From: a virus
Direction: 5' to 3' (one strand)
Length of the DNA stretch: 25,346 nt
Virus record (IMG/VR): IMGVR_UViG_3300032323_002311
Span: 1 to 25,346 of that record
In this document: positions 8,189-24,579 of the stretch, piece after piece
Layout: each line of letters opens with the position of its first letter
Position numbering within the stretch: position 1 is the stretch's first letter
Position numbers and translations under genes: made by a program
The notes under the pieces: model-generated
What the model was told of the DNA's origin: nothing
Seen by the model: only the letters and a program-made list of their open reading frames with translations
Database searches by the model: none

Positions 8189-8752
8189 CTACCCAGACTG
8201 GGAGATTACATAGATTGGCTCACCAGTTGATGGGTCGAGGCGAGCTGAGATGGCAACCGCAGCTTTAACGACGCTGCGAGCTGTGCCTATGGTGCGTTTT
8301 TTACCTTCGAAAGCTGTGTGCATTGAACCCAGAGCGTATTCAGCTCCAGACCCCATGGCGTATAACCCTGACTCATCAAGAGCCCAGTCGTAGCCACCAC
8401 CAATTTCATAGATGCGTCCGTGCACAACCACCAATACGGAGGAGTCTTGTTCACCCTTTTCCCCGTATTGAGCGTCATCAAAACATTGTTTTAGTGCAGG
8501 AACAAGTTTGGAAGAAATGAACTTATCTAGTCTGACGCCATAGTCTGAGGCAGCTGGGACTGGAGGCTTAAAAGTATGTGCAAGTAGATTGACCGCACGC
8601 ATGTCGCCAGCAGCTCCGAAGATGTATGCGCCATTTTTTACCACCTTGCCAGCATCTTTCGGCAGCACAAAGATGCGATTGTCTTCAGTTACTCGGCTGT
8701 CGTAGCCAATAACTGCCCAACCTTCACCCTGGATTGCTGCAAGCGTTGTCAA
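8189..8752 (-). CDS. Proteasome beta/HslV-like Ntn hydrolase
   Basis: 187 residues from TTG 8752. This start is chosen because GGGAGAAGAG lies about 8 nt upstream and it places Thr-Thr right after the initiator, as in HslV and beta-subunits. Thr2 would be the nucleophile after Met removal. YDSR gives Asp at mature position 17, and Lys31 or Lys35 are candidates for the catalytic lysine. YIFGAAGDMRAVNLL matches the (F)GxAGDxxxxxxL signature, and GSGAEYALGSMHTAF matches the conserved GSGxxxAxG of the C-terminal half. No alpha-subunit-type N-terminal extension is present. The family builds self-compartmentalised peptidases. No partner unfoldase (HslU/Mpa) is in the window, although a MoxR-type AAA+ is. 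The preceding gene stops 53 nt upstream. Confidence 0.82.
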   Translation of the reverse strand: MTTLAAIQGEGWAVIGYDSRVTEDNRIFVLPKDAGKVVKNGAYIFGAAGDMRAVNLLAHTFKPPVPAASDYGVRLDKFISSKLVPALKQCFDDAQYGEKGEQDSSVLVVVHGRIYEIGGGYDWALDESGLYAMGSGAEYALGSMHTAFEGKKRTIGTARSVVKAAVAISARLDPSTGEPIYVISQSG

Positions 8753-8804
8753 GTTGTTCTCTTCTCCCTGGAGCTGCAGCGCAGCAGCTATGTATTTTTT
8801 ACCT

Positions 8805-9056
8805 TTAGTCTTCCCAAAGCAAATCACGCAGCTCATCTTCATGCTTGTCGGCGTGATGATGTGCATTGTGCTTTGCTGAAATGTCTTCTTCGTCAATGAT
8901 TCTGTCTAAAGAAAGAACCGCAACGCAGCCTTCCTCCTCGAACATCACAACAAGTTTGGTTTCCCCATCATTTGGGTCGTCAATAATTGCTGCAACAAAA
9001 GGCGAAGCTCCACCATTTGAGTGGAACGATTTATCAACAATGCTTGGTCTCAACAT
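8805..9056 (-). CDS. Hypothetical acidic protein with His cluster, 83 aa
   Basis: ATG 9056. The N-terminal half is beta-like (SPFVAAIIDDPNDGETKLVV then MFEEEGCVAVLSLDRII), and the C-terminus holds HNAHHHADKHEDELRDLL, a cluster of six histidines within 10 residues. A TATACA sequence lies 8 nt before the ATG and there is no Shine-Dalgarno, so the mRNA could be leaderless. No family recognised. It precedes the Ntn hydrolase gene and may share its transcript. Confidence 0.6.
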   Translation of the reverse strand: MLRPSIVDKSFHSNGGASPFVAAIIDDPNDGETKLVVMFEEEGCVAVLSLDRIIDEEDISAKHNAHHHADKHEDELRDLLWED

Positions 9057-9086: not shown

Positions 9087-9120
9087 GATTGGGAAAAAGA
9101 AAGCCCCTCCGAAGAGGGGC
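9087..9120 (-). terminator. Terminator of the 10758-9290 operon and its structured 3' region
   Basis: On the minus strand GCCCCTC-UUCG-GAGGGGC (9103-9120) is followed by TTTCTTTTTCCC. The UUCG tetraloop and U-tract make it a strong leftward terminator. Confidence 0.88.
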
Positions 9121-9148
9121 TCTCTATAATGAACTGGACTTTAGACAC

Positions 9149-9280
9149 CTATCTCCCTCAGGGAGTAGGGAGATAGATGCGATGGGAGGTAGAACCCATC
9201 TCATCACGGGTGCGAGACGAGCTCGAGCAGTTCCCGTGGAACTCTAGGATAAATGATTTTTTACCTAGTGATTTCCACGG
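9149..9280 (-). ncRNA. Tandem-hairpin element, candidate structured RNA (strand by context)
   Basis: This is 132 non-coding nt between the 9290 stop and the terminator at 9103. Perfect or near-perfect stems lie side by side. One is CTATCTCCCT/AGGGAGATAG (9149-9158 with 9167-9176). A second is GATGcGATGGG/CCCATCtCATC (9176-9186 with 9195-9205). A third is CACGGG/CCCGTG (9205-9210 with 9233-9238). The fourth is CCGTGGAA/TTCCACGG (9234-9241 with 9273-9280), enclosing CTAGG/CCTAG. Stems three and four share the 9234-9238 bases and so exclude each other, as in a switch. The orientation is inferred from the leftward operon and terminator. No tRNA, known riboswitch or CRISPR pattern was recognised. 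Confidence 0.55.
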
Positions 9281-9289
9281 CGAGCGCGT

Positions 9290-9532
9290 TTAGTCTTCTT
9301 CGTCCTCGTCATCTTCAATGCCTACACCAATTTCATGTGAGACCGCAGCGATGTCCCAGCCGTAGTGTTCCTTCAGCCAAACATTTGCAAGTCTTGATGC
9401 AAAGTCGTGGTCGTCTTCGCCTTCCTCCCGCAAACTCTCGTCAAGAACTACGGTGGTCATCAGAGTGAAATAGTCACCAACAAAAACAACTTCCTTCGTC
9501 AGCTTGATGTGGTCAATCTCAGGTAGCGACAT
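9290..9532 (-). CDS. Hypothetical acidic protein, 80 aa
   Basis: ATG 9532 comes 2 nt after the upstream TAA (AAGTAAAAATG). The sequence contains IDHIKLTKEVVFVGDYFTLM, DFASRLANVWLKEHYGW and an Asp/Glu tail (EIGVGIEDDEDEED). It could be a DNA-mimic type protein, but acidity alone does not show that. Last coding gene before the tandem-hairpin element. Confidence 0.65.
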   Translation of the reverse strand: MSLPEIDHIKLTKEVVFVGDYFTLMTTVVLDESLREEGEDDHDFASRLANVWLKEHYGWDIAAVSHEIGVGIEDDEDEED

Positions 9533-11779: not shown

Positions 11780-11828
11780 AGTTCTATCATCATTACATAA
11801 GGGACTGACATTTTGCAGACAAAGAGAA

Positions 11829-11862
11829 ACCCCCCGACTCTGGGGGAGAGTCGAGGGGCTTC
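11829..11862 (-). terminator. Terminator of the 11879 gene
   Basis: Minus strand: AGCCCCTCGACTCT pairs with AGAGTCGGGGGGTT around a short C-rich loop, then TCTCTTT. It lies 17 nt after the gene stop. Confidence 0.82.
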
Positions 11863-11878
11863 GGTGTGAAATAGGGGA

Positions 11879-12214
11879 TTACTTCACAACCAGAACCACA
11901 TAATCTGTGGTGGTCTGTGTGGCTTCGTAAGCCTCAGGGAAAGCAAGTGCCAACTTCTTTGAGTCCACACCTGTGCGTGAACGCTTGCTTTGTTCAATTC
12001 GGATTTCGCCGTTTACAATACCAACTTCGGCATCTCCAAGAACTTCCTTGATTTTTGCTTCAAGTTCCTTCTTGGTCTTTTCCAACTCGGTAATCATTGT
12101 GCGTGTTGCCACGAACTCGTTGATTGCCGCTTGGGTTTCTTTGTTGAGCTCTACTGCTGTGTTCTCAACTTCTACTGCCTTTACTACCTTTACTGCAACT
12201 GTTGCCTTAGACAT
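11879..12214 (-). CDS. Recombination-associated-type protein, paralogue A
   Basis: 111 residues, ATG 12214 with AAGGAG upstream. A central coiled coil (INEFVATRTMITELEKTKKE LEAKIKEVLG) is followed by DAEVGIVNGEIRI and DSKKLALAFPEAYEATQTTT. The GD(A)E.G.(V/L).G.V.....(S/T)R...D.KKL...(F/L)PE.(Y/F) order is typical of small proteins, or C-terminal parts, linked to YqaJ-type viral exonucleases. Their separate role is unclear, and no exonuclease is in the window. The protein at 20538-20873 has the same length, start and end (roughly half of positions identical by eye). Own promoter and terminator. Confidence 0.72.
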   Translation of the reverse strand: MSKATVAVKVVKAVEVENTAVELNKETQAAINEFVATRTMITELEKTKKELEAKIKEVLGDAEVGIVNGEIRIEQSKRSRTGVDSKKLALAFPEAYEATQTTTDYVVLVVK

Positions 12215-14133: not shown

Positions 14134-15939
14134 TTAGGCGTTGAGCCTACCCACATTTGTAAGTTCCCCAGCCGCTGCTCTACCAATCTCTGATGCCGCA
14201 CCAGTCGGGTCTAACACGCCACCAAGAACCGCAACTCTTGCATGTCGTGCCAGTCTCTCAGCATAGTGCCCACCATCAAAAGGTAGCCACAAAATCGCTA
14301 CACCCGCTTCGTTGCATCGAGCCAGCCACTTGCGTGCGTGCTCTCGCTCATCGTGAGTGTATTGACCATCTGAGACAACAACCAAAAGTCTAGCACCGCT
14401 TCCGTTCAGAAGATTGAGGCTTCCGTCAAGTGCTCTGAAAGCCTTGTCGAACTTCTCTGTGCCGTCCTCAGCCGTGTAGACATTTACATCTTCAAGGTGC
14501 TGTCCAGCCTTCAAGGTCGGGAACACATCGTTGCCGTAATAAACCATCGCACACTTGCCTTGAACACGGCGAACCGCCTCAGACATAACCCACGCAGTTG
14601 TTGCCATTGGGTTCATCGCAGAACCCATAGAGCCTGAAATGTCTACCATCACGCCAACTGTAAGTGTTGGGTCGTCTGTGTGCTTGCGAACTGTTCGACG
14701 GAACGGCTCGACTTGCTTCATAACGCCACGCTCTTTGAGTGCATTTGCTTGCACCATCTGTCGAGTTCGTAATCTTCCTGGAGGTGTGATGCTTGCAATC
14801 TCAATCGCATCACGCTCACGATACTTTGCCTTCTCTAACAACTGTGCAATCTGCACGGCTGCAATTCTCTCTTCAGGAGTTGGCTTACGAGTTTCACGCA
14901 AACGAGAAGAAGTCTTTGAGACACCAACACCTGTGCTTTTCTCGAACACCTGCTTTGCTACCTCTTCATTTTTCTGACGCTCTTTAGCATCTGCATGCTT
15001 CTCTTCTACTTGCTTTTCCCACTCTTCGCTCTGCTCTTGGTCTGCGAGCGCATCAGCGTTGTCAATAGAAATTACCGCACCTGCTTCTTCTAGTGCGTCC
15101 ATCAACATCTTTGCAAACTCGGAAGACATACTGCCTTCGCCTTTTTCACCTGACTCAGGCTTTCCATCTTGTCCTTGACCATCGCCTTTTTCTTCGGCAA
15201 CTTCACGAATAATCTTTGCCCACTCTTTAGCAAGTGGATAGAGAAGTTCGGCATTAGCGTGCATTGTGTGCGCTTGAAACTTTCCAGCAATCTCACGCAA
15301 CTTCACAATAACTTCAGGAGTCATGTAAGCATCTACTAACTCGACCAAGTCTTTCACTTCAGACTCTTCGAGAATACCTGCGTCAATTCTTGCGTGAACT
15401 GTTGCAACTAGAAAAGCTGCGCTTTGTGTATTTGATGCGCTCGCAAACTTTTCTTGTGCATCTGCAATCACGATGTCCATCGCACATGCTCGCAGGAAGT
15501 TTAGAGACTCAGGCATCGCCAAAAGTCCCTGCGCTTCAATACGACTTTCCTCCAAGAGGATAAGTGCTTGGTGCTCATCTTTTTCTAAATCTTTGTAAGC
15601 CTTTTCCAAATCCCATTGTGAGAACTTTGCATGGAAGGCTTCGTGCATAATCGCACCTGTTGCCTTAGGGAACTCGAATTGCTTTGAGCGTTCTGTGAGG
15701 TCTCCAACCATCTCAGGAGAAACCATCTTGCCAAAAGCAATCGCTGTGTCTACTTCAATTTCTGCGAGCGCAGGGTTGTAGCACGCTGGTGCTCCATGTC
15801 CTGCATCAGTTCCTACATAACCAATTAGGTCGTAGCGTTCGCTCCATTTGTTTGCAAGTTCACCAACTGCACGCCCTACTCCCAACCACTCAGGTGGGGT
15901 ATTGCTTGCACGGCTCTCGCTGTGTTTGATGTGTGCCAT
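14134..15939 (-). CDS. VWA-domain protein with N-terminal HExxH metallopeptidase-like region
   Basis: 601 residues, ATG 15939 with GGAAGGAAG upstream. Residues 95-110 contain TGAIMHEAFHAKFSQW (HEAFH, His99 and His103), with EESRIEAQ about 130-137 as a candidate third ligand. This layout is that of the DUF2201-type putative metallopeptidases. Residues 250-345 are Gly/Glu/Lys-rich and probably coiled or disordered. The VWA domain starts about 426 (LTVGVMVDISGSMGS), with the MIDAS DxSGS at 433-437 and a later VVSDGQY. The C-terminal end is Ala/Gly-rich. The MoxR-like ATPase gene lies 147 bp upstream. By analogy with CobS-CobT and MoxR-VWA pairs, the ATPase would remodel a target presented by the VWA protein. 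Confidence 0.8.
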   Translation of the reverse strand: MAHIKHSESRASNTPPEWLGVGRAVGELANKWSERYDLIGYVGTDAGHGAPACYNPALAEIEVDTAIAFGKMVSPEMVGDLTERSKQFEFPKATGAIMHEAFHAKFSQWDLEKAYKDLEKDEHQALILLEESRIEAQGLLAMPESLNFLRACAMDIVIADAQEKFASASNTQSAAFLVATVHARIDAGILEESEVKDLVELVDAYMTPEVIVKLREIAGKFQAHTMHANAELLYPLAKEWAKIIREVAEEKGDGQGQDGKPESGEKGEGSMSSEFAKMLMDALEEAGAVISIDNADALADQEQSEEWEKQVEEKHADAKERQKNEEVAKQVFEKSTGVGVSKTSSRLRETRKPTPEERIAAVQIAQLLEKAKYRERDAIEIASITPPGRLRTRQMVQANALKERGVMKQVEPFRRTVRKHTDDPTLTVGVMVDISGSMGSAMNPMATTAWVMSEAVRRVQGKCAMVYYGNDVFPTLKAGQHLEDVNVYTAEDGTEKFDKAFRALDGSLNLLNGSGARLLVVVSDGQYTHDEREHARKWLARCNEAGVAILWLPFDGGHYAERLARHARVAVLGGVLDPTGAASEIGRAAAGELTNVGRLNA

Positions 15940-16086: not shown

Positions 16087-17121
16087 TTAGATTTTCGCTG
16101 GCTTACACTCGACCGCATACGCACGAGTCAAGACATCAGCCACAATCGGGCGGTCTAACTCAGGGGAGGCGGCGAGAAGATTTGCGATAGCAAAGTCAGT
16201 TCCAAAAGTTTCCGCTATGTCACGGAAAGCCATTAGTTCACGGAACTGAGGAGACCAAGAAACTTCTCTTGCAAGTTGTTTCTTTGCCAAGTTCTGAGCA
16301 ACAGTCACGAGTGCAGTAGGCACTCCTAACTTTCGAGCAAGAGCCCAATCGGTAGTCATTTCAACCTGCAAGGTGAAACGAGAGAGCAGAGCCTCAGACA
16401 AACGAACTCCAGGAGCGTTCGGGTTAGTGGCGGCAACTACAAAAAACTCAGGGTGAGCCTTGATAGTTCCTCGCTCAGGGTTCGCTGTGATTGTAAGTTC
16501 ACGGCGTCCGTCCATCAAACCATAAACGATTGAAAGAACCTTAGGGTCAATCAAACCAATTTCGTCAATGAAATAAACGCCACCAGTTTCCGCAGCTTTT
16601 ACTAAGTCGCCATCAACCCACTCAAAACCACCAGCAGGTGTTTGCACATAGCCACCAATCATGTCAGCAACTTCTGTGTCTCCAGTTCCCATCAAGGTGT
16701 AGACATCTGAATACGCAGCCTCAACGAGTGCAGTCTTGCCACAACCTGGAGCACCATACAGAAGTGCAAACATTGGAGAGCCAGCAGAACCTGCAAAAAC
16801 TTTTGCAGTTGCTTCACGAGCCTTGCGAAGAGTTAGAACATCTGAGTGCATGCCCCACTTGCGACCAAAATACTTAGAACCATTTGGACGAAGATAAGCC
16901 TCTTCACCTTCCATGTTTTCAACTGCAACTGCGTTGTCAATCGCACGCTTGCGTGGAGCACGCTCCGCACCTGATGCACGAGCAACATAGCGACCAGTTG
17001 GAGTCACCTTTGCATTGAGTTGCATTGAAGCCTCTTCATTTGCAACCTGAGAAACTACCTCAATGACAGTCTCCCAAAATCCTCCGCCAATTTCGGCGTA
17101 GCGTTCTTTTAGAGTTTCCAT
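16087..17121 (-). CDS. MoxR/CobS-type AAA+ ATPase
   Basis: 344 residues. ATG 17121 follows GGGAGATAAAAA. Walker A is GAPGCGKT (123-130) and Walker B VYFIDEI (182-188). ADMIGGYVQ gives the pre-sensor (V/G)G-x-(Y/Q) pattern of MoxR/AAA_5 members, VVAATNPN the sensor 1 segment, and EALLSRF the arginine-finger region. The N-terminal 90 residues are a basic extension. MoxR/CobS ATPases couple ATP hydrolysis to remodelling of a partner held by a VWA protein, which is encoded next door. The same-strand neighbour upstream (17146-17598) begins the unit with the 17644 promoter. Chelatase activity is unlikely, since no chelatase subunit or cobalamin gene is present. Confidence 0.84.
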   Translation of the reverse strand: METLKERYAEIGGGFWETVIEVVSQVANEEASMQLNAKVTPTGRYVARASGAERAPRKRAIDNAVAVENMEGEEAYLRPNGSKYFGRKWGMHSDVLTLRKAREATAKVFAGSAGSPMFALLYGAPGCGKTALVEAAYSDVYTLMGTGDTEVADMIGGYVQTPAGGFEWVDGDLVKAAETGGVYFIDEIGLIDPKVLSIVYGLMDGRRELTITANPERGTIKAHPEFFVVAATNPNAPGVRLSEALLSRFTLQVEMTTDWALARKLGVPTALVTVAQNLAKKQLAREVSWSPQFRELMAFRDIAETFGTDFAIANLLAASPELDRPIVADVLTRAYAVECKPAKI

Positions 17122-24568: not shown

Positions 24569-24579
24569 TTTTTTACCTC

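Follow-up and report, generated by a model that had tools for sequence, protein, structure and literature searches.

A run of hairpins at positions 9149–9280 of the window, which is the whole stretch of DNA analysed here (one linear virus sequence of 25,346 bases), is genuine and forms a small RNA gene, not described before, of many uncultured freshwater phages. The gene has a dedicated promoter signal, three conserved hairpins, a single copy per record and C-rich loops; its transcription during infection is inferred, with no transcript seen. Nearly all long genes of the record are on the minus strand, and the RNA is read leftward because the long genes around the hairpin run lie on that strand. 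In this direction, the gene at 9532–9290 is followed by promoter-like DNA, the three hairpins, a terminator (9121–9094) and the leaderless start of the gene at 9056–8805. For the complete element, comprising promoter, RNA and terminator, the interval to be used is about 9094–9274.

Fold and covariation of the three hairpins

The earlier note had described four tandem hairpins in this region and had named a folding energy within the shuffled range as a refuting result. Folding of 9149–9280 gave -53.3 kcal/mol on the plus strand (z -4.5) and -52.1 kcal/mol on the minus strand (z -5.8), and none of 200 shuffled sequences folded equally well on either strand, so that this condition did not apply. 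The hairpins are indeed present, but only three of them (H1–H3) belong to the conserved RNA, the fourth using promoter DNA. The conserved body of about 100 nt matches a covariance model at 9141–9245 on the minus strand, its exact 5′ and 3′ ends being inferred and unmapped. H1 (9205–9238, minus strand) consists of an outer stem CACGGG/CCCGTG and a small inner stem CGAG/CTCG, with compensatory changes in four of five outer pairs. H2 (9181–9200, minus strand) is formed by GATGGG/CCCATC around the conserved loop UUCUACCU, and its compensatory changes affect all five pairs in a structure-fitted alignment and three of five in a plain one. H3 (9145–9180, minus strand) is a 13-bp hairpin, GCATCTATCTCCC/GGGAGATAGGTGT, whose loop contains a conserved CUCCCUG and whose pairs show compensatory changes in 11 of 13 cases. 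The common plan runs from H1 through a short AUGA linker, located directly before H2 at 9204–9201 on the minus strand, to H2 and a directly abutting H3 that starts with GC and ends with GUGU. In the window RNA taken alone, the consensus fold lies 5 kcal/mol above the minimum free energy fold; H1 and H2 compete with an alternative, and H3 is certain (pairing probability 0.9–1.0). Covariation supports the predicted consensus fold over this more stable alternative.

An exact 28-base search returned one close relative, and searches of IMG/VR with the flanking proteins returned 4, 34 and 80 loci, several of which are views of the same contigs. In most loci, reading of the region revealed a similar structured stretch upstream of the homologue of the gene at 8805–9056. 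A covariance model built from 11 sequences (R1) located about 45 instances of the RNA, on the expected strand and in the expected position; the window scored 91.6 bits (E 1e-16), and the most divergent relatives had E values between 1e-8 and 0.02. A second model (R2) agreed with R1 (window 81.7 bits, E 3e-14) and added further matches, including L013, L020 and L100, and three more were reached by a DNA pattern. The models cover more than 40 related IMG/VR loci, nearly always near a homologue of the small gene at 8805–9056, and the three-hairpin plan and promoter spacing are kept in relatives down to 52% protein identity. Of 18 whole records, 16 contain a single copy of the RNA per phage; the two records without a model match are of the divergent L010 and L040 types, in which the same plan is visible by eye. 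A second weak model match, at 11823–11916, resembles an ordinary terminator hairpin and was rejected as a second copy.

A lack of covariation in homologues had been set beforehand as a result that would refute the proposal. The 35 distinct homologues showed compensatory changes in each of the three helices, and the proposal survived this test. RNAalifold applied to a plain MAFFT alignment recovered the three hairpins unprompted, with compensatory changes in 14 pairs. In this alignment, 93% of cells were paired and 12 of 23 pairs had changed on both sides; no shuffle out of 500 scored as high, and slid controls were far lower. The wider alignment was fitted to the structure and is biased towards it; it gave 93% paired, double changes in 20 of 23 pairs and 0/500 shuffles. 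The stems drift while the loops stay C-rich and conserved. An H-type pseudoknot (GAGAC..GTCTC), present only in the L032 group and broken in others, was dropped.

This strongly conserved architecture, with one copy per record, an AUGA linker that is both conserved and unpaired, and a likewise conserved loop core ACC(C/U), would also suit a structured RNA that binds a phage or host protein, either as a decoy or as a packaging or assembly RNA like phi29 pRNA, with the loops and AUGA serving as protein contacts. We regard this explanation as unlikely, since clade-wise co-change of loops and ribosome-binding sites, concentrated in the loops as described below, is not expected from it. Moreover, a packaging role finds little support in the nearest annotated relative, where about 6 kb separate the terminase from the matching HslV gene and where the RNA is missing from the checked region.

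Promoter, terminator and independence from the neighbouring genes

A -10 element of the actinobacterial TAnnnT type, TATCCT (9246–9251, minus strand), lies about 7 nt before H1, and a -35 element read from the sequence, AAATCA (9269–9274, minus strand), is separated from it by a 17-nt spacer. The arrangement AAATCA-N17-TAnnnT is also found in L006, and a similar -35 precedes the downstream gene in relatives. In nearly all of about 38 aligned homologues the -10 stands at about 7 nt from H1, in the versions TATCCT, TATTCT, TAGAAT, TAAAGT and TAAACT; a few of the most divergent differ. This promoter signal provides a handle on transcription in these phages. On the other side of the RNA, a strong intrinsic terminator consisting of AGCCCCTCTTCGGAGGGGCT and a T-run was read from the sequence at 9094–9121 (minus strand); a terminator is at the same place in L002, L004 and L005, and with another sequence in L006. 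In L019 and L028, a covarying inverted repeat around GTAAAAA (GGAAGTAAAAAGTAAAAACTTCC, CGAAGTAAAAAGTAAAAACTTCG) was observed upstream of the RNA, inside its promoter.

Both neighbouring genes are conserved small genes without a Pfam match. The 83-aa gene at 8805–9056 (minus strand) has a homologue at the great majority of loci, and the 80-aa gene upstream of the RNA (9290–9532, minus strand) has relatives in 34 loci. The start of the former appears leaderless, with TACAGT (9068–9063) followed by 6 nt and the ATG. Relatives carry AAATCACC and a TAnnnT box at fixed spacing before the homologue of this gene, and this combination is likely the promoter type of the phage group.

In the window, the RNA lies between the 9290 and 8805 genes with no terminator upstream, a location compatible with a cis element, i.e. 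a 3′ UTR of the former gene or a 5′ leader or attenuator of the latter. In L023 and L032, however, a terminator precedes the RNA, whereas in the window clade it follows the RNA, and in L016, L019, L028, L092 and others the RNA and the 8805 homologue are kept apart by another gene. Since a gene or terminator isolates the RNA in many relatives, it is neither leader nor 3′ UTR there. The 8805 gene also has a leaderless promoter of its own. Based on the promoter at fixed spacing just before H1, the upstream terminator in L023 and L032 and the intervening genes, the RNA behaves as its own gene, and we consider a cis element very unlikely. Among the options raised in the earlier note, a processed 3′ UTR is accordingly disfavoured, while the conserved promoter spacing and the isolation from neighbouring genes speak for a phage small RNA.

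The other point in favour of a cis role is an upstream arm, CCGTGGAA (9273–9280, minus strand), which on folding can pair with TTCCACGG (9241–9234) and exclude H1, and can thus fold H1 away in read-through RNA. CACGG at 9234–9238, which had been noted as contested by two stems, can indeed pair in the sequence either upstream (with CCGTGGAA, 9280–9273) or downstream (with CCCGTG, 9210–9205). This arm, which belongs to the 8-bp stem of the earlier note, is part of the promoter DNA and precedes the predicted start of transcription. Despite sequence changes, complementarity of the promoter DNA to the RNA's first 22 nt exceeds chance, and exceeds that with sequences of other phages, in the window, L004, L005, L006 and L053; most other relatives lack it or show it below significance. 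The suggestion of a switch holds only to the extent that the alternative pairing is kept in the window clade, as it is not kept elsewhere. The arm may stop read-through copies from folding H1, or may act as a DNA operator.

C-rich loops and the ribosome-binding sites of the phages

The loops carry CCCUU-like motifs in H1 and H2 and CUCCCUG or CCCUAG in H3. The reading we prefer, with confidence that is about evenly balanced against doubt, is a stand-alone gene for a trans-acting sRNA whose C-rich loops pair with Shine-Dalgarno sequences. The RNA would be transcribed from its own promoter during infection, and the loops of H1, H2 and H3 are inferred to pair with purine-rich Shine-Dalgarno regions. 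Through such pairing, ribosome binding to selected mRNAs would be prevented or, less probably, redirected; mRNAs of the phage itself, such as the one for the AAA+ ATPase (17121), would be among these targets.

In clades other than that of the window, 6-mers complementary to upstream regions of the phages cluster in the loops and not in the stems (pooled p 2e-13). Upstream sites with AAGGGG occur in 64 of 300 cases in phages with CCCCUU loops versus 11 of 478 elsewhere (about 21–22% versus 2–2.4%). The corresponding counts are 12/176 versus 2/602 for CTAGGG (CCCUAG loops), 24/176 versus 31/602 for AAGGGA (UCCCUU loops) and 8/239 versus 3/539 for CAGGGA (UCCCUG loops). The motifs in these four comparisons were picked after the loops had been seen. 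When all clade-unique loop 6-mers were used without any choice of motif, the true clade assignment ranked first of 24 and loops exceeded stems (p 0.03). AAGGGG was found at 0 of 71 in an outgroup phage region without the RNA. Phylogeny is uncontrolled in these tests of co-change because the clades are few. The ribosome-binding sites of L013, L021, L028, L030, L009 and L031 are mostly AAAGGGG(G) and not AGGAGG, which is an unusual preference.

The window clade alone showed no overall loop–site excess (p 0.29; 281 of 400 shuffles as good; no advantage of loops over stems). Within the window, the AAA+ ATPase gene at 17121 (leader ACAGGGAGATAAAAATG) is the strongest individual candidate: its site CAGGGAG (ACAGGGAG before the ATG) is complementary to the H3 loop over 7 nt. 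CAGGGAG is found at the AAA+ gene in two relatives (L134 and L169) and not in G002, the phage of L004. In addition, the window contains an HslV/proteasome-like peptidase gene at 8189–8896, whose true start may be a TTG near 8742–8752 because homology begins near residue 40–46; the CAGGGAG site at this TTG is a second 7-nt complement of the H3 loop.

Several clades do not go beyond shuffled RNA, and C-rich RNAs match G-rich sites by composition, which accounts for part of the signal. This leaves room for the same trans-acting antisense logic with host mRNAs as targets, the match to phage sites being a by-product of shared site composition; the resemblance of the loops to the 16S anti-Shine-Dalgarno core (ACCUCC in the window H2 region) points the same way. 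Such targeting seems improbable to us, since the flavour of the phage sites changes together with the loops, with the reservation that host sites are not comparable, the host being unidentified. Pairing with phage sites could be carried further, to loops that constitute a second, phage-specific 'anti-Shine-Dalgarno' code co-evolved with the phage sites, by which one RNA would time translation genome-wide; this is put forward only as a tentative idea, doubtful at present. If the pairing model is true, an RNA regulator would be changing in step with a whole set of ribosome-binding sites, and these phages would provide a natural system in which global translation control by one phage RNA becomes directly testable.

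Another motif at gene starts is the octamer GGTAAAAA, which is about 20-fold over-represented in the window, almost only on the coding strand (minus-strand sites for example at 24577, 19229, 13996, 11522, 11506, 9265 and 6908), and is also present in L130, L131 and L132. It often forms GAGGTAAAAAATG at gene starts and sometimes lies in hairpin loops, and its 5′ extensions are clade-specific in relatives (GGGGTAAAAA, AAAAAGTAAAAA). The idea that the H2 loop targets the GAGGTAAAAAATG start motif was rejected, as such targeting is not clade-specific (p 0.35). In its position, but not in its sequence, GGTAAAAA is similar to the start-associated sequences of cluster K mycobacteriophages (PMC3203893).

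Relation to known RNAs and the carrier phages

The statement in the earlier note that no RNA family is recognised agrees with the absence of an Rfam match; no family reached threshold, and the sub-threshold matches in the window were all at the terminator side. ARAGORN found no tRNA or tmRNA in the window, and literature searches, limited to open-licence papers, did not bring up an account of this RNA. The nearest parallel in logic is the 6C sRNA of Actinobacteria, known as B11 in M. tuberculosis and M. abscessus; the C-rich loops of B11 base-pair with ribosome-binding sites and repress translation, and for eccB4 each loop is sufficient by itself (PMC10470900). Like 6C/B11, the phage RNA is small, with hairpins that present C-rich loops. 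It differs in being phage-encoded, in having three abutting hairpins, and in its loops, CCCUU, UACCU and CUCCCUG, whereas 6C has long C-tracts. The 6C criterion of two stem-loops with runs of about six C is not met, as there are three hairpins and the window loops UUCUACCU and UACUCCCUGA have at most three C in a row; L009 and L040 reach 6–7 C in a row, in H1 only. Pairing of the loops with ribosome-binding sites, a further 6C feature, has statistical support in relatives but none in the window clade as a whole. The Rfam 6C model gave no match at gathering in the window or 10 loci, nor a sub-threshold one. Judged by these comparisons of sequence and predicted structure, 6C membership fails and the phage RNA is best described as a new RNA family.

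Staphylococcal sRNAs with C-rich UCCC loops aimed at Shine-Dalgarno sequences are host-encoded in Firmicutes and are not known to be related to the phage RNA in sequence or structure. The phi29 pRNA is a phage-encoded structured RNA with a three-way junction and one gene per genome. The phage RNA is similar to it in size, in being phage-encoded and in having one gene per genome, but is composed of serial hairpins instead of a three-way junction and, as far as seen, is not beside packaging genes; it has no Rfam match to a known packaging RNA family.

The window had no nucleotide match among known phages (50,697 records), the two flanking genes had no protein match there, and no match was found in bacterial genomes. 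By other genes, the nearest annotated relatives are Actinomycetia phage DSL-LC01 and Microbacterium and Gordonia phages, from which an actinobacterial host is inferred; the carriers are uncultured, probably actinobacterial phages. The RNA was not found in the regions of DSL-LC01 and Pumpernickel that were checked. The present data provide a well-supported RNA family in phages whose freshwater hosts are abundant and mostly uncultured, a group for which almost no described regulatory RNA was found.

Two further features of the window were observed. Adjacent genes at 16087–17121 and 14134–15939 encode an AAA+ (MoxR-like) ATPase and a CoxE-like VWA protein; DSL-LC01 has this pair too, annotated as AAA ATPase and cobalamin biosynthesis protein. 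On both strands, the octamers GCGCTCGC/GCGAGCGC occur about 10 times versus 0.3 expected, and CACGCCGA occurs 8 times versus 0.15 expected.
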